This document shows, piece by piece, positions 20,600 to 29,734 of a DNA stretch of 33,244 nt. The position numbers and the translations under genes are program-made. Source of the DNA: Woeseia sp. (GTDB taxonomy: Bacteria > Pseudomonadota > Gammaproteobacteria > Steroidobacterales > Woeseiaceae); assembly GCA_013003155.1 (NCBI GenBank), contig JABDKF010000344.1, positions 1 through 33,244 of the forward strand, read 5' to 3'. A model generated the notes under the pieces. It worked only from the letters and a program-made list of their open reading frames with translations, did not search any database and was not told the DNA's origin. Every line of letters starts with the position of its first letter. The first letter of the stretch is position 1.

Positions 20600-20928
20600 T
20601 TTGCGAGTGCGGCCACGGCCACGCCAGCAACGTCCCGACGTCCTACCGCTGCCGCTGCGGCCGAAACGTGACGGTAACGCCTGAGCTGTTACCCCTGTCA
20701 TCGAGGGTCAGGACGGCAAACTCAGAGCTATTTCGCCTCGCCGCCTCCTGCCGCCGCGATGACGTCCTAGCGATGCTGGATAGGCGGGGCGATGTAGGTA
20801 GTTTAGAGACGCTTGACCAACTGGCGAGGCATTTAAAAAAGGGCCACCGCTGGAAACCGTCGAGGGTAAAAACGGAACTTGCACGATCTTTAAAAATTGT
20901 TCTTGCAACGGATAAGGACGCGCGTTAA
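20596..20928 (+). CDS. Small protein with N-terminal zinc ribbon
   Basis: The 110-residue protein starts on the ATG at 20596 that overlaps the TGA of the tip candidate. The first 21 residues hold four cysteines in C-x-C pairs (C3-x-C5 and C19-x-C21, with CECGHG and RCRCG), which fits a small metal-binding ribbon. The remaining 80 residues are helical and basic (SELFRLAASCRRDDVLAML, LDQLARHLKKGHRWKPSR). No family is recognised. As the last gene before a structured non-coding element, it closes the late block. The upstream in-frame reading from 20329 is a shadow. Confidence 0.6.
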   Translation: MICECGHGHASNVPTSYRCRCGRNVTVTPELLPLSSRVRTANSELFRLAASCRRDDVLAMLDRRGDVGSLETLDQLARHLKKGHRWKPSRVKTELARSLKIVLATDKDAR

Positions 20929-20937
20929 CTTCCCAGC

Positions 20938-21030
20938 ATGACGCATACAAAACCAAACACCTAATCGGAAACCCGTCGAAAGTTCTTCTGCATATCTGCG
21001 GTTGGATGCGTCATACCTCGGCGGGTTTCC
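20938..21030 (+). terminator. Interleaved inverted repeats; terminator or pseudoknot element
   Basis: Two inverted repeats interlock. ATGACGCAT (20938-20946) pairs with ATGCGTCAT (21006-21014), and a 13-base arm starting GGAAACCCG (20967-20979) pairs with the arm ending CGGGTTTCC (21018-21030) with one G-U pair. The second stem is followed by five T (21031-21035), as in an intrinsic terminator, although its loop is long (38 bases). The A-B-A'-B' order allows a pseudoknot or two mutually exclusive folds, as in attenuators. It lies between the end of the tail block and the next operon. Confidence 0.55.
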
Positions 21031-21049
21031 TTTTTGTTTCGGGCTGGTC

Positions 21050-21545: not shown

Positions 21546-21866
21546 ATGATTCTATCTATCTGCTTAATCATCCTGGCCATTCTTTTAGCGTGTACGTTCG
21601 CGCTCATCTGCATGGTCGAAACCGCACCCGTAAGGGAGGACATACCCGACGACATCAACCGAAAAATTCAATACGCCCACTGGCTGCGAGAACAGCAGGA
21701 GGCGACGGCCCTGGAATTTGTCGACATCCACGAGCCGACAAGCGACTACGAAATCGACGAACTGCGGAACGTTATCTACAACGATCCAACGGCGGAAGAG
21801 TACGCCGCCTGCATGATACGAATCATGCATTACCGTTTCCCTACGAATCATGAGGCGAGAACATGA
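21546..21866 (+). CDS. Single-pass membrane protein
   Basis: The 106-residue protein has a very hydrophobic N-terminal segment (residues 2-24, ending FALICMV) followed by a charged soluble domain with helices (INRKIQYAHWLREQQEAT, YEIDELRNVIYND). GGAGG at 21534-21538, seven bases before the ATG, is an excellent ribosome site and fixes the start. The layout fits a membrane-anchored accessory or inner-membrane lysis helper, but it lies far from the other lysis candidates and no family is recognised. The ATGA overlap couples it to the RecT-like gene. Confidence 0.65.
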   Translation: MILSICLIILAILLACTFALICMVETAPVREDIPDDINRKIQYAHWLREQQEATALEFVDIHEPTSDYEIDELRNVIYNDPTAEEYAACMIRIMHYRFPTNHEART

Positions 21867-22441
21867 CCACCAGTTACGAATTACCAGAAGCACCCGAAAC
21901 CGAACCAGAAACCGAACCTCGCACCCTATCGGAAATCGAGCGGGAGGAGCGGGGCTTTGAACTACGCCAGCGGGAGGCCAAAGCACTGGCCGCCTCGACG
22001 CTGGTGCCGACGGCCTACCAGGGCCGCGAGGGTATCCCCAACGTGATGATCGCCCTCAACATGGCCCGCCGTCTCAACGCTGACCCGCTGATGGTGATGC
22101 AGAATCTGCACGTTATCAACGGCAAGCCAGGCTGGTCGGCCCAATTCCTCATCGCGACGTTTAACTCATGCGGTCGCTTTTCCTCGATCCGCTACGAGTT
22201 TGAGGGCGGGTCGTGTAAGGCCGTTTGCACCGAGCTGGCTACCAGTAAGGAAATCGAGGGAACGACGATCACGATGGAAATGGCCGACGCGGAGGGCTGG
22301 ACCAAAAAGGCTGGCAGCAAATGGAAAACCATGCCGGAACAGATGCTCAAGTATCGGGCCGCAACATTCCTCATTCGCAGCATTGCCCCCGAAATCGGGC
22401 TTGGCCTTTACACGAGCGAAGAATTGAAGGACATCGAGTAA
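21863..22441 (+). CDS. RecT-like single-strand annealing protein
   Basis: The 192-residue protein resembles phage RecT-type annealing proteins. After a Glu-Pro-rich start come IPNVMIALNMARRLNADPLM, NLHVINGKPGWSAQFLIAT and KWKTMPEQMLKYRAATFLI, then PEIGLGLYTSEEL. The LNMARRL, INGKPGWSA and MLKYRAA blocks match the family's core, which binds ssDNA and pairs homologous strands during phage recombination and concatemer formation. A partner exonuclease is not visible, although a RusA-like resolvase and an SNase are encoded further on. It is coupled by ATGA to the upstream membrane protein and followed by small genes. Confidence 0.75.
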   Translation: MTTSYELPEAPETEPETEPRTLSEIEREERGFELRQREAKALAASTLVPTAYQGREGIPNVMIALNMARRLNADPLMVMQNLHVINGKPGWSAQFLIATFNSCGRFSSIRYEFEGGSCKAVCTELATSKEIEGTTITMEMADAEGWTKKAGSKWKTMPEQMLKYRAATFLIRSIAPEIGLGLYTSEELKDIE

Positions 22442-22443
22442 CG

Positions 22444-22581
22444 ATGGAGAATAGGCATTTGGTCGACGCCATCGCGGCAATGGTGATGCAGTCCAAGGAG
22501 TTCGCTGCCGCGATCGGCGTGGAGCATGTGGACCAGCAGCGGGAAGAGGTCAGCAGTGCGGATGCGGACTGCCCGTTCTGA
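22444..22581 (+). CDS. 45-residue small protein after the RecT-like gene
   Basis: The short ORF begins two bases after the RecT-like stop and ends in a TGATG overlap with the next start. It is helical and polar (HLVDAIAAMVMQSKEFAAA, VEHVDQQREEVSS) and ends DADCPF, a common ending for small acidic phage proteins. Both junctions are tight, which supports translation. It could be an ssDNA- or RecT-associated factor, but no family is recognised. Confidence 0.5.
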   Translation: MENRHLVDAIAAMVMQSKEFAAAIGVEHVDQQREEVSSADADCPF

Positions 22582-22907
22582 TGGCGTACTACAACACGAC
22601 GCATGAGGAGCAGTCGGTCGCGGACGCAGAACTTCGGAACTGCAATCGTCAGGAGGCATCCATCCTGATCCTGTTCCGAGAGCGTCCGTCCGACCTCCTC
22701 AGCCCGTGGGACGTGGCAGTTCATGTCCCGTTCCCGATTACGTCGGTTCGACGTGCGATTTCCGACATGTCCGACCGAGGACTGTTGGTCAAGACGACGA
22801 CCAAGAAGCAAGGGCCATACGGAAAATCCAGCTATTGCTGGCGCTTAGCGAAACCGAAGTACGTTCAGAGCGAATTGAACTTGACAGAATCCGCTGGATC
22901 TGAATAA
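22581..22907 (+). CDS. Winged-helix DNA-binding protein
   Basis: The 108-residue protein has a central helix-turn-helix with wing: EASILILFRERPSDLLSPWD, then PITSVRRAISDMSDRGLLVKT and a basic wing KKQGPYGKSSYCWRL. This is the MarR/DprA-type winged-helix pattern, with ITSVRRAISDMSDRG as the recognition helix. It is the last gene of the early row. A good promoter overlaps its 3' end (22881-22908), which suggests that it could repress or activate the adjacent control region. The exact target is unknown, and a role in replication initiation is also possible. Confidence 0.65.
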   Translation: MAYYNTTHEEQSVADAELRNCNRQEASILILFRERPSDLLSPWDVAVHVPFPITSVRRAISDMSDRGLLVKTTTKKQGPYGKSSYCWRLAKPKYVQSELNLTESAGSE

Positions 22908-22908
22908 T
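22881..22908 (+). promoter_or_regulatory. Sigma70-type promoter for the candidate small RNA
   Basis: A consensus -35 TTGACA (22881-22886) is separated by 16 bases from AATAAT (22903-22908), five of six matches to the -10 consensus. It overlaps the last codons and stop of the winged-helix gene. The expected start of transcription is near 22914-22916, just ahead of the structured element. Another TTGACA-16-base promoter of the same design lies at 23224. Confidence 0.6.
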
Positions 22909-22913
22909 CACGA

Positions 22914-23023
22914 GCGTCGGAACTGTTGACCCGGCAACACTACAATACGAAGACCGCTGCTGGTCATCCCTGTCAACAGAACATCGCCGCAAGGCATGTT
23001 GGGATGGTCAGCAGCGGTTTTTT
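22914..23023 (+). ncRNA. Candidate structured small RNA of about 110 nt
   Basis: It is bounded by a good promoter upstream and a strong intrinsic terminator. It holds no ORF longer than nine codons. CTGTTGAC at 22923-22930 is exactly complementary to GTCAACAG at 22972-22979, which lies in the side bulge of the terminator hairpin, so a pseudoknot is possible. Inside the hairpin sits a second stem (AACAT / ATGTT and GCC / GGC) closed by a GCAA tetraloop at 22989-22992. No known RNA family is recognised. Confidence 0.5.
22953..23023 (+). terminator. Strong intrinsic terminator
   Basis: An 18-base arm beginning ACCGCTGCTGG (22953-22970) pairs with 23001-23018, with two G-U pairs and no gap, followed by six T (23018-23023). 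The 30-base loop carries an inner GCAA-capped hairpin. It ends the early operon and the candidate small RNA. Confidence 0.85.
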
Positions 23024-23221
23024 AATGCCCCGCTAGAAGGACGATGCCGGGGGCTAACCGTCGAGTGCGGAGCATCGTCTGGTTTCGACAGCGTTGTAGA
23101 GTCGCTACCAATAACTTCGCGGGAGTTCATAGCACCCGCACGGTACAGTCTGGCTCCGAAGGAACAGAACTGGCACCGCACATAGCGTAGCGGTGCGTCT
23201 CCACCAAAGGAACAAACTGCT
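23024..23221 (+). other. Non-coding structured stretch with tmRNA-like motifs
   Basis: I see no credible ORF in these 198 bases. Local stems include GACGATGC / GCATCGTC (23040-23047 / 23072-23079), GCGGG / CCCGC (23119-23123 / 23135-23139) and CACCGC / GCGGTG (23174-23179 / 23190-23195). TGGTTTCGACAG at 23080-23091 matches the conserved 5' end of tmRNA, and TCTCCACCA ends at 23206. Between them GTC GCT ACC AAT AAC TTC GC could be read as a resume codon followed by T-N-N-F-A. No T-arm or acceptor pairing is found, so I do not call a tmRNA. A loose direct repeat (AAGGAACA-AACTG) occurs near 23159 and 23207. Confidence 0.35.
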
Positions 23222-23223
23222 AT

Positions 23224-23251
23224 TTGACAGGCGAGCGACGTAGCCTATAAC
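23224..23251 (+). promoter_or_regulatory. Sigma70-type promoter for the ParB-Mom operon
   Basis: Perfect -35 TTGACA (23224-23229), a 16-base spacer, and -10 TATAAC (23246-23251; five of six). Predicted start near 23258, giving a 5' leader of about 64 bases before the ATG at 23322. Confidence 0.65.
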
Positions 23252-23321: not shown

Positions 23322-24419
23322 ATGGCAAGAATTACTAAGACCACTACGTGGCAAGAGCTTGGTTGCACTGACAAAGAAGCTAAGAACCGGCACTTCTCGC
23401 CGTTTCAAGCACTATCGATCAGGCGATTCCAGAAAGAACGCAAGTACGGAATTGATCGTTTCAAGTCAACAGACATTCAGCAGCTTTCAAAAGTCTTGGG
23501 GCATGAGCCGGAATCGCTACGCGATCGGTTAGGACTAGAACGACGCCGTCCGGTTGCAATGGTCGGGACTGTTGCTTACCTAAACATGAGCGGCAAACCG
23601 CGCGGGGCACCGAAAAACGGTAAACCGTCAAACACAAAGCACGGGCTACGGGTGGAGTGGTTGCCACTGGACCTGCTCATTGTGGACCCGGACTATCAAC
23701 GAGCACTAAAAGGAAAGTTCCAGCAATACACTACGGAGTGGGATTGGCGGGCTTGCAGTGCGTTGACTGTATCTTCTAGAGACGGCCATTTTTATGTTGT
23801 CGATGGATTGCAGAGAAAGTCGGCATTGGAAAATAAAGGAGAGTCGGAAGTCCTTTGTGTAATTGTTGACGTGCAAAACAAAGAAGATGAGGCGGAGTTG
23901 TTTTGCAAGTGCAACGTAGACCGAACGCAGTTATCAAGCCTTGAGAAGTTTTGGGCAAAAGTAGAGGCAGGGAGCCGCAACGGACGAGAAATACTCGGTA
24001 TCGTACAAGCGTTTGATTTCTGCATTAAGCGGCCGGGAGTGCAGCAGGACGGTTGCAGCAACGGAACAATTAGCTCGATCGCCAAGATAGACGAAGCGTT
24101 CAGCCAAGGAGTTTTATCGCAAGTCATGAAAGTCCTGAGTGACGGCGTAACAAAAGATAACCGCTCACAACTGCTGAGCAGTTTTTATATTGGTGGGATT
24201 GCTTACTTGTGTAGATGCAATCGAGAGATCGATATAGAGAGGCTAAGCAGTAAGTTGCAGACGATGAATTTTGACGCTTGTACTGCCAAAGCGAAACGAC
24301 TGAATAACGAAAGTAAGTCGCTTGGCTTGGGCGGCGGCGGAGCAAAGTATTTCGCCCAAGCGTTAGCAGACGTCTACAACTACAGGTTGAAGAAAAGTGA
24401 CAAAGTAGATGTCGTGTAG
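23322..24419 (+). CDS. ParB-like nuclease-fold protein preceding Mom
   Basis: The 365-residue protein has a ParB/sulfiredoxin-type domain at about 108-185: LRVEWLPLDLLIVDPDYQR, then HFYVVDGLQRKSAL (157-169) with the family D-G-x-x-R core, and VLCVIVDVQNKEDEAELF. It resembles phage proteins of the DUF6551 kind. The N-terminal 80 residues are basic and may bind nucleic acid; the C-terminal part is helical. The ATG at 23322 has AAGGGA a few bases upstream and is preferred over 23277, which lies in a leader hairpin. It overlaps the Mom-like gene by 11 bases, so it is probably its partner, perhaps sensing DNA or supplying specificity. By eye the gene is richer in A and T than the late block. Confidence 0.7.
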   Translation: MARITKTTTWQELGCTDKEAKNRHFSPFQALSIRRFQKERKYGIDRFKSTDIQQLSKVLGHEPESLRDRLGLERRRPVAMVGTVAYLNMSGKPRGAPKNGKPSNTKHGLRVEWLPLDLLIVDPDYQRALKGKFQQYTTEWDWRACSALTVSSRDGHFYVVDGLQRKSALENKGESEVLCVIVDVQNKEDEAELFCKCNVDRTQLSSLEKFWAKVEAGSRNGREILGIVQAFDFCIKRPGVQQDGCSNGTISSIAKIDEAFSQGVLSQVMKVLSDGVTKDNRSQLLSSFYIGGIAYLCRCNREIDIERLSSKLQTMNFDACTAKAKRLNNESKSLGLGGGGAKYFAQALADVYNYRLKKSDKVDVV

Positions 24420-25068
24420 TATTACGGAGATTGATTCTCGCTCCGCGATGGACTTGGTGATGCGGTATCACTACAGCGGTCGGAAGGTCGGGTGTAGGGT
24501 AGCCTTCGGGCTGTTTGAAGCGGACCGGCTCATCGGTTGTGTCTGCTATTCAGTCCCCGCGTCATACACGTTGTGCAACGGTGTCTGCGGGCCAGGTTAC
24601 AGAAAAGACGTGCTGGAGTTGTCGCGTCTGGTGATTGTCGGCAGCGACAAGAACAATGCCTCTCGCTTAATCGGCGGCAGTCTGCGATTACTTGGCAATC
24701 AGGTACTCGTGAGTTACGCCGATCCGAACGTCGGCCATGTTGGTTACGTTTATCAGGCGACCAATTGGATTTACACTGGACTCGGCAATGCAGAGCCTGC
24801 CTGGGTGAATCCCATCACCGGAGAAATCGTCAGTAAGACACGGCGACATATTGACAAGAAAGCGGAACGATTGGGATTGCACTGGTCAGATCTAGAAAAG
24901 GTGCCGCAAATAGGGAAGCATCGTTATGTGACCTTTACCGGAAACAAGCGATTCAAGAAAGCAGCACGGCGAGCGTTGCGATACAAGGGCCAACCTTTTC
25001 CCAAAGGCGACACGGAGCGGCACGATATAGATCGTGGGGGGGATGTCAGCGGATATTTGTTTGCATGA
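24409..25068 (+). CDS. Mom-family DNA adenine modification enzyme
   Basis: The 219-residue protein matches the Mom family, a GNAT-fold group that changes adenine in phage DNA to a carbamoylmethyl-type modification, shielding it from restriction enzymes. Visible family blocks are MRYHYSGRK at 18-26, LFEADRLIGCVCY at 35-47, VLELSRLV at 68-75 and SYADPNVGHVGYVYQATNW at 102-120, followed by a basic C-terminal part with HRYVTF and RRALRYKGQPFPKGD. The start overlaps the ParB-like gene by 11 bases and the stop overlaps a Cys-rich ORF (ATGA). In phage Mu, mom is coupled to the zinc protein Com; here a Cys-rich protein follows instead. Which adenines are changed cannot be seen. Confidence 0.82.
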   Translation: MSCSITEIDSRSAMDLVMRYHYSGRKVGCRVAFGLFEADRLIGCVCYSVPASYTLCNGVCGPGYRKDVLELSRLVIVGSDKNNASRLIGGSLRLLGNQVLVSYADPNVGHVGYVYQATNWIYTGLGNAEPAWVNPITGEIVSKTRRHIDKKAERLGLHWSDLEKVPQIGKHRYVTFTGNKRFKKAARRALRYKGQPFPKGDTERHDIDRGGDVSGYLFA

Positions 25069-28331: not shown

Positions 28332-28527
28332 TTCCAACCATCCCGCCTGGGCGTTTGGTCGCTACGCGCTTTTGATGATGGTGTTGTCTGTCGTTTTGTG
28401 GCAGAACGCCAGCAATTTCGACATGACCGAGATTCGATCTTTGGTGATGATGGGCGCGGTGATGTTGGGGTGGGGAGTGACCGAGAAAGTCGCCCAAAAG
28501 AAACTAAAGGAGTCAGACGATGACTGA
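28306..28527 (+). CDS. Two-helix membrane protein, possible holin
   Basis: The 73-residue protein from ATG 28306 has two hydrophobic helices (about residues 20-33 and 46-60) separated by a short polar loop and ends in a Lys/Asp-rich tail (KKLKESDDD). This is the size and layout of class II holins, which form pores in the inner membrane at lysis. No sequence signature proves it, and the protein at 31221 is another candidate. The upstream in-frame codons from 28255 read through the preceding gene and are not used. It overlaps the protease gene start by eight bases. Confidence 0.55.
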   Translation: MSHKLPLSDSNHPAWAFGRYALLMMVLSVVLWQNASNFDMTEIRSLVMMGAVMLGWGVTEKVAQKKLKESDDD

Positions 28528-29734
28528 GCCGCACCGAACGGTTGACAGTAGTAGATTCCGAAAACTGTTACTGCTGTCTGGCAGTCTTGTCTGGGGTCTT
28601 GTCCCGTGTCAATCCACTCAAGTCACGGGGCAAGACCTTTCTACACCGCTGACGACGCTGGTGCCGGTCACGACGCAGACAGGGTTTCGACCTGCAAGCG
28701 GTCAAGATCGCATTTGGCGAATGACCGCTGATGCCGATTACCACGACGCGGTGATCCGCGTGGAGACTCCCGAGAATTTCGGCGGCACCGGATCAGTCGT
28801 CGCGACCGATGGCGATGAGACGATCTGCATCACAAATCAACACGTCGTCGAGATCGGGTTCAACTCGAATCGAGTGCATCGGTATGTCACGGTGACCGGC
28901 TCACTTGGACGTTCCCGCGCCGAGGTGATCTATTCATCGAAATCGGCAGACATTGCGATCCTGCGATCCGAGCGACCGATCACCAGTAGCGCCCTTCCGT
29001 TGGCAGCAGAGTCACCGGCAATCGGCGCGGCTATCGAACTGTGTGGATTCGGTGGTCCCAATCAAACGATGCGTCACTTCTCTGGTAAGCGTGTTAGTAC
29101 CCGTTATTCGGTGTCGATCGATGCGCCATGCGTCAGCGGCGATAGCGGTGGACCGATGATTGTTGATGGCTGTTTGGTCGGCGTCAATTTTGGCGGACCA
29201 GGACACCCGACACGCTCGTTCCAAGGTTGGCGATTAGTCGAGCCAGCATCGAGTCAAGTTGGACCAGAGTGGCTCACAGAGACACTCACACAGGTATGCC
29301 GACCGCTGGGTTGCCTGCCGATTATCCGGCGTCGTGCTGCCGGATCGATAGCGTTGACGCCTCCAGCAAACGGTGGCGCTTCGGGTGGCCCGGTGTCTGG
29401 CTTGCCAGATTACGGGAGTCGGGCCATCCCTGGTCCAGCCGGGCCGCCCGGTCCACCGGGTGCTGATGGTGCTGTTGGCGCTGTCGGACCACCCGGCGAA
29501 CAAGGTCCGCCAGGAGTCGCTACGATCTCTCCCGAGCAAGTGCAGCAGATTACCGAACAGGTGTTGGCGCAGTGTCCGCAAGCCGACATCGATCAGATCA
29601 CTCAAGCCGTGATAGACCAACTACCGCCAATCTCGCTCGCGCTCTACGACGGGAATGGTGTTCAGATAGATCGTGACACCGTCCCGTTGGGCGGTACACT
29701 TAACCTGCGTTTTGTACCCGAGGACAATCAATGA
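28520..29734 (+). CDS. Secreted trypsin-like protease with collagen-like stretch
   Basis: The 404-residue protein has an N-terminal hydrophobic export segment (residues 15-29), then a chymotrypsin-fold protease domain (about 70-260) with a complete triad: ITNQHVV (H108), KSADIAIL (D144) and CVSGDSGGP (S209). A collagen-like Gly-x-y stretch at about 305-332 (GPAGPPGPPGADG) and a C-terminal beta part (LALYDGNGVQI) follow. AAGGAG at 28507-28512 gives a strong ribosome site. A secreted protease with a collagen stalk could sit on the virion or the host surface and cut proteins at infection or lysis. This combination is rare in phages, and a host-derived origin is plausible. Confidence 0.8.
   Translation: MTEPHRTVDSSRFRKLLLLSGSLVWGLVPCQSTQVTGQDLSTPLTTLVPVTTQTGFRPASGQDRIWRMTADADYHDAVIRVETPENFGGTGSVVATDGDETICITNQHVVEIGFNSNRVHRYVTVTGSLGRSRAEVIYSSKSADIAILRSERPITSSALPLAAESPAIGAAIELCGFGGPNQTMRHFSGKRVSTRYSVSIDAPCVSGDSGGPMIVDGCLVGVNFGGPGHPTRSFQGWRLVEPASSQVGPEWLTETLTQVCRPLGCLPIIRRRAAGSIALTPPANGGASGGPVSGLPDYGSRAIPGPAGPPGPPGADGAVGAVGPPGEQGPPGVATISPEQVQQITEQVLAQCPQADIDQITQAVIDQLPPISLALYDGNGVQIDRDTVPLGGTLNLRFVPEDNQ

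Follow-up and report, generated by a model that had tools for sequence, protein, structure and literature searches.

Judging from its sequence, a genuine RNA element, not a random one, lies between positions 22923 and 23023, downstream of a phage winged-helix gene; in the simplest reading it is a pseudoknot-capable terminator, and it may double as a small RNA (sRNA). A promoter match, a hairpin, a U-tract, a complementarity between the hairpin loop and an upstream segment, and a second copy of this layout elsewhere in the same DNA are all present. We give an even chance to the joint reading, in which the element would be a pseudoknot-capable intrinsic terminator of the recT-small ORF-winged-helix unit and a promoter at the end of the winged-helix gene (promoter P1) probably adds an RNA of about 105-110 nt. 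The element is not yet a demonstrated RNA family of its own.

Genomic setting

The window, i.e. the whole stretch of 33,244 nucleotides that was analyzed, is an entire contig (C295) of a metagenome-assembled genome (MAG), to which it was assigned by binning alone, so that mis-binning is possible. It is judged to be a tailed-phage genome or prophage, and genes for terminase, portal, capsid/protease, neck and tape-measure proteins were recognized in it. All main genes annotated in the window lie on the plus strand, and around the element they follow the order recT (21863-22441), a small ORF, the winged-helix gene (phrog_9069, 22581-22907), the element, a DUF6551/ParB-like gene (23322-24419) and mom (24409-25068). 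Farther downstream, positions 28520-29734 encode a trypsin-like protease fused to a stretch of collagen-like repeats. The RpoD protein of the host MAG has conserved promoter-recognition regions and, to the eye, is of the gammaproteobacterial type.

Promoter, terminator hairpin and pseudoknot pairing

The preliminary description had proposed a promoter TTGACA-16-AATAAT at the end of the winged-helix gene, an 18-bp hairpin with T6 about 110 bases later, a GCAA-capped stem in its loop and an 8-bp complement interlocking with the hairpin, and each of these was recovered. The sigma-70-type promoter P1 (22881-22908, plus strand) lies within the 3' end of the gene and scored 11/12 in the promoter scan. 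Its -35 hexamer (22881-22886) is followed by a 16-nt spacer and by the -10 hexamer (22903-22908), which overlaps the TAA stop codon of the winged-helix ORF (22905-22907). The pattern TTGACA-N15-18-WATAAY occurs exactly twice in the 33 kb against 0.03 expected, and sites of at least 11/12 on both strands of the window number two against 0.23 expected. The other pattern match, promoter P2 (TTGACA-16-TATAAC, 23224-23251, plus strand), precedes DUF6551-mom; it was found by pattern search, the simple scanner having passed it over on account of the final C of its -10. Promoter P1 falls within the 18 codons that close the winged-helix gene, a C-terminal extension without counterpart in the mycobacteriophage relatives of the family, and is thus not tied to the conserved winged-helix domain. 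Taken alone it could be a chance site, about 0.2 such being expected in the window.

The hairpin starts 45 nt past the winged-helix stop codon. Folding and a stem scan agree on its two plus-strand arms, segment b (22953-22970) and segment b', which with the U-tract occupies 23001-23023. The stem (22953-22970/23001-23018) has 18 unbroken pairs, 16 Watson-Crick and two G-U, and closes a loop of 30 nt; the T6 run is at 23018-23023, so that a G+C-containing stem is directly followed by a U-tract, as in an intrinsic terminator. None of 200 dinucleotide shuffles of the whole window had, on either strand, an 18-pair stem before T5. The RNA of the element folds at -50.4 kcal/mol (z -5.4), a value equalled in none of 200 shuffles. 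Within the terminator loop, folding places the inner GCAA-capped hairpin at 22980-23000 on the plus strand (AACAU-c-GCC(GCAA)GGC-AUGUU). The earlier statement that no protein is encoded holds for ORFs of at least 50 aa on the plus strand, none of which lies inside the element, but a 36-aa ORF starting with TTG, in frame with the upstream gene and without support for coding, runs through it.

Segment a (CTGTTGAC, 22923-22930, plus strand), just past the stop codon and close to where the RNA is predicted to start, is an 8-nt perfect complement of segment a' (GTCAACAG, 22972-22979, plus strand) in the terminator loop; the probability of such a match with the loop by chance is about 0.8-0.9%. The complementary segments thus follow the order a-b-a'-b' of an H-type pseudoknot. 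Since the inner hairpin adjoins both a' and b', its five outer pairs are probably in competition with the pseudoknot. Folding of successively longer prefixes predicted the a:a' helix from about position 22980 onward; once b' has been extended to about 23012 and is about half complete, the terminator stem is predicted instead. Nested folding cannot display the a:a' helix and the terminator stem together; the two could coexist as an H-type pseudoknot provided that about 20 nt of linker suffice to bridge the stem, and part of the inner hairpin would then be lost. Against the proposal, the putative pseudoknot has to cross an 18-bp stem with a linker this short while competing with the inner hairpin.

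A second element with the same layout

A second element (20938-21035), absent from the preliminary description, surfaced in the scan for long T-tailed stems about 2 kb upstream of the reported one, after the previous gene block. Its segment a (ATGACGCAT, 20938-20946) is 9 nt past the stop codon (20926-20928) that ends the preceding gene and is separated by a 20-nt linker from a hairpin with T5 (20967-21035; fold z -3.7), which lies 38 bp past the same codon. The 13-bp stem pairs 20967-20979 with 21018-21030, and the loop holds a' (ATGCGTCAT, 21006-21014), a 9-nt perfect complement of segment a with a chance of about 0.5%; all these parts are on the plus strand. Both elements present the same order of parts (a, a linker of about 20 nt, b, a loop with a', b' and a U-tract) in unrelated sequences, with the inner hairpin on opposite sides of a'. 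The same topology with different sequence points to RNA structure and not to a common protein site. Moreover, the window scan found no promoter of at least 10/12 before the second element, which suggests that the structure goes with the ends of gene blocks and not with a dedicated sRNA promoter.

The window holds no strong long-loop terminators other than these two, and the a:a' complementarity is present in each. Considering the 34 T-tailed hairpins on both strands, a:a' matches of at least 7 nt were found in these two and in none of the 32 others, the reported element being counted here, as in the other counts, with 8 nt, since the hairpin scan itself extended its stem through a mismatch and gave 6 nt. 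In a 0.8-Mb sample from a genome of the same genus, none of 125 long-loop T-tailed hairpins had an a:a' match of at least 8 nt (2.9 expected by swapping). Stop-codon read-through over the pseudoknot was considered and rejected: the frame of the reported element stays open for 43 codons and that of the second element does not.

Similar layouts in other phages

A viral sample of 1.65 Mb, collected for other purposes, contains 139 non-redundant long-loop T-tailed hairpins, including the two of the window. Seven of them have a:a' matches of at least 8 nt against 2.2 by swapping (P 0.01), and four have matches of at least 9 nt against 0.6 (P 0.006, or 0.03 without L134, a candidate rejected as an artefact because its supposed segment a merely repeats one arm of the hairpin stem). 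This enrichment is modest and suggestive only. The only convincing cases outside the window come from two unrelated phage contigs, L140 and L089, each with a promoter-like site, a segment a, a hairpin whose loop contains a' and a U-tract. In L140 (926-1013), AGGTGTGGC is followed by a 20-nt gap and a stem with U6 before a primase/helicase-like gene, and the promoter-like TATATTTG, which resembles the Bacteroidota TAnnTTTG element, precedes it. In L089 (minus strand, 1259-1150), GGTGAGATCG begins 13 nt past the stop codon of a nuclease-like gene near recT, preceded by the promoter-like TAAATTTG, and is followed by a 25-nt gap. Lambda, Mu, half of phage P1 and one Flavobacterium phage gave no convincing case. 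Two further features were noted: in phage Mu (L263, 36652-36701), a long-loop T-tailed hairpin with a 12-bp stem and a 26-nt loop lies 50 bp past mom, and in L029 (5150-5245) a tRNA-like GCAGGTTCAAATCCTGC is found among small genes downstream of recT.

Search for relatives

The element is an orphan among the phages, plasmids, viral contigs and genomes searched. It matched no Rfam family at gathering or lax thresholds, and ARAGORN found no tRNA or tmRNA in it. Similar DNA was found neither by blastn against phage and plasmid records nor in 60 related genomes, and the element is absent from viral contigs with related RecT, Mom, capsid/head or winged-helix proteins. A single-sequence covariance model recovered only the element itself at a meaningful score among 296 order-level and 398 phylum-level genomes and loci, the rest being noise, and the matches inspected for exact loop and gapped pseudoknot DNA patterns were coding or unrelated sequence.

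Between the terminator and promoter P2, positions 23027-23223 form about 200 nt without a clear gene, with several hairpins and a 48-aa ORF. Part of it (23045-23206; GGGGGC ... TGGTTTCGAC ... CTCCACCA) has a tmRNA-like look, which was dropped as neither Rfam nor ARAGORN found a tmRNA. An intergenic element of about 71-74 nt was also noted directly after a related HTH gene in Mycobacterium phage Deloris (L176, 1783-1860). A 161-nt query holding this mycobacteriophage element matches 217 phage records, many identical over the core alone, without an annotated feature. The 71-nt element was rejected as support, since it folds no better than shuffles and is absent from D29 38.5-43.5 kb.

Discussion

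From these features we infer how transcription, termination, pseudoknot formation and switching, and any sRNA function, may be connected. The 18-bp stem with U6 would halt transcription and insulate P2-DUF6551-mom from the recT-winged-helix unit. Segment a, just past the stop codon, would pair with a' in the terminator loop, and this helix, predicted before b' exists, could delay or lock the terminator and stabilize the 3' end, so that terminator efficiency or 3'-end stability would be tuned by a:a'. From promoter P1 this stretch is probably also transcribed on its own, as an RNA of about 105-110 nt that would end at the same terminator and may be bound by Hfq. Against this interpretation it must be taken into account that a long-loop terminator by itself is not unusual.

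Each of the closest known systems shares part of this arrangement. In MicX of Vibrio cholerae, an sRNA derived from a 3' end, the promoter is internal to an ORF (PMC9438474). As in sRNAs of the MicX type, a consensus promoter is found here at the end of an ORF, and the predicted RNA covers the 3' UTR and stops at the terminator of the gene; it differs in belonging to a phage gene, in its pseudoknot-capable terminator, in being a predicted transcript and in that conservation was not found. The phage small RNAs lambda OOP, PreS and Gifsy-1 IsrK (PMC12197685, PMC4825925) likewise are short RNAs of phage regulatory regions that start at a promoter of their own and end at an intrinsic terminator, and IsrK is followed by a 45-aa ORF (PMC4825925) as the reported element is by one of 48 aa; in contrast to them, the element has no sequence relation that we found and no antisense target. 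The fhsA motif of Leptotrichia, a weak riboswitch candidate with 52 distinct representatives that goes with the metabolic gene fhsA, has a terminator stem-loop proposed to form a pseudoknot with upstream RNA, which would block termination (PMC11109978). The terminator loop may pair with upstream RNA here as well, whereas the reported element closes a phage gene block at its 3' end, and relatives of the element were not found. The C4 antisense RNA of phages P1 and P7 is similar in that short upstream segments of the same transcript (a1 and b1, annotated in phage P1) are complementary to parts of the RNA. However, C4 has separate downstream target sites, none of which was found for a', and its layout is otherwise dissimilar. 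CTGTTGAC has no other plus-strand copy in the window, and the 7-nt TGTTGAC at 23864 lies within a gene and not at the translation start of a target.

It is possible, but in our estimation rather improbable, that the element is a dedicated phage sRNA gene whose RNA from promoter P1 acts in trans, its 5' tail or its loop pairing with mRNAs of the phage or the host. The terminator would then be just the 3' end of the RNA, as in many Hfq-dependent sRNAs. A consensus promoter and a terminator 110 nt apart, the Hfq gene of the host MAG, the similar promoter-to-terminator unit of L140 and the fact that phage sRNAs are common (PMC12197685) are in line with this. On the other hand, the second element folds alike without a good promoter, a target scan of 41 gene starts gave nothing above shuffled sRNAs, and conservation was not found in the genomes and phages searched. 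The interpretation in the preliminary description is supported in part: a discrete unit running from promoter to terminator, with a fold far from random and unmatched in Rfam, stands, but an sRNA gene of its own is one reading only, because the hairpin sits where an operon terminator is expected and the second element lacks a good promoter.

That the hairpin simply terminates the recT-winged-helix operon as any intrinsic terminator would, with promoter P1 and the pseudoknot as coincidences, is unlikely. Its site 45 nt past the stop codon fits, as do the genes on one strand and the separate promoter P2 of the next unit. However, promoter P1 is one of only two consensus promoters in 33 kb, and the joint chance of both a:a' pairings is about 4e-5 if they are independent, although the complement of the reported element was noticed before testing and the 0.5% of the second element is the cleaner figure.

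We consider it very improbable that the hairpin is a leader-type terminator under antitermination, as in lambda pR'-tR' or Gifsy-1 IsrK, where a factor or RNA would permit read-through to the 48-aa ORF and DUF6551-mom. The promoter-terminator spacing would suit such a role, as would the 48-aa ORF (23044-23190) with an AAGGA motif closely before its ATG and the IsrK order of sRNA, 45-aa ORF and regulator (PMC4825925). Upstream, positions 22531-22542 are a 12-nt perfect complement of terminator arm b, the only one for this left arm outside the element in the window, and 0.25% of shuffled upstream sequences have one. Nevertheless, DUF6551-mom is already driven by promoter P2, no Q or N homologue was recognized among the proteins scanned, and the second element has no comparable promoter. 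Finally, DNA-level operator pairs or recombination sites can practically be dismissed: a' of the reported element (CTGTCAACAG) and a/a' of the second are near-palindromic, but the layout is common without common sequence, unlike the sites of one binding protein, the T-tract is one-sided and both non-Watson-Crick pairs of the stem are G-U.

As a tentative extension of the pseudoknot-capable terminator, about which we are ourselves doubtful, some phages might close early gene blocks with a distinct terminator, in which a segment a near the stop codon or RNA 5' end, set off by a linker of about 20 nt, forms a pseudoknot with the terminator loop. Compared with an ordinary terminator, the proposed gain would be a choice between termination and read-through set by folding kinetics, together with a stable 3' end held in a knot and, once a promoter is added, an sRNA. 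The candidate cases are the two elements of the window (20938-21035 and 22923-23023), L089 and L140.

If the pseudoknot is real, RNA folding alone could tune termination at the ends of phage gene blocks, and the presence of two elements in one phage allows a clean comparison by compensatory mutations. Even if the element is ordinary, it shows that a promoter and a terminator found together at a gene end should first be compared with the terminators nearby, before a new RNA family is named. If promoter P1 is active, the phage also gains a compact sRNA where its recombination genes adjoin those for DNA modification (mom).
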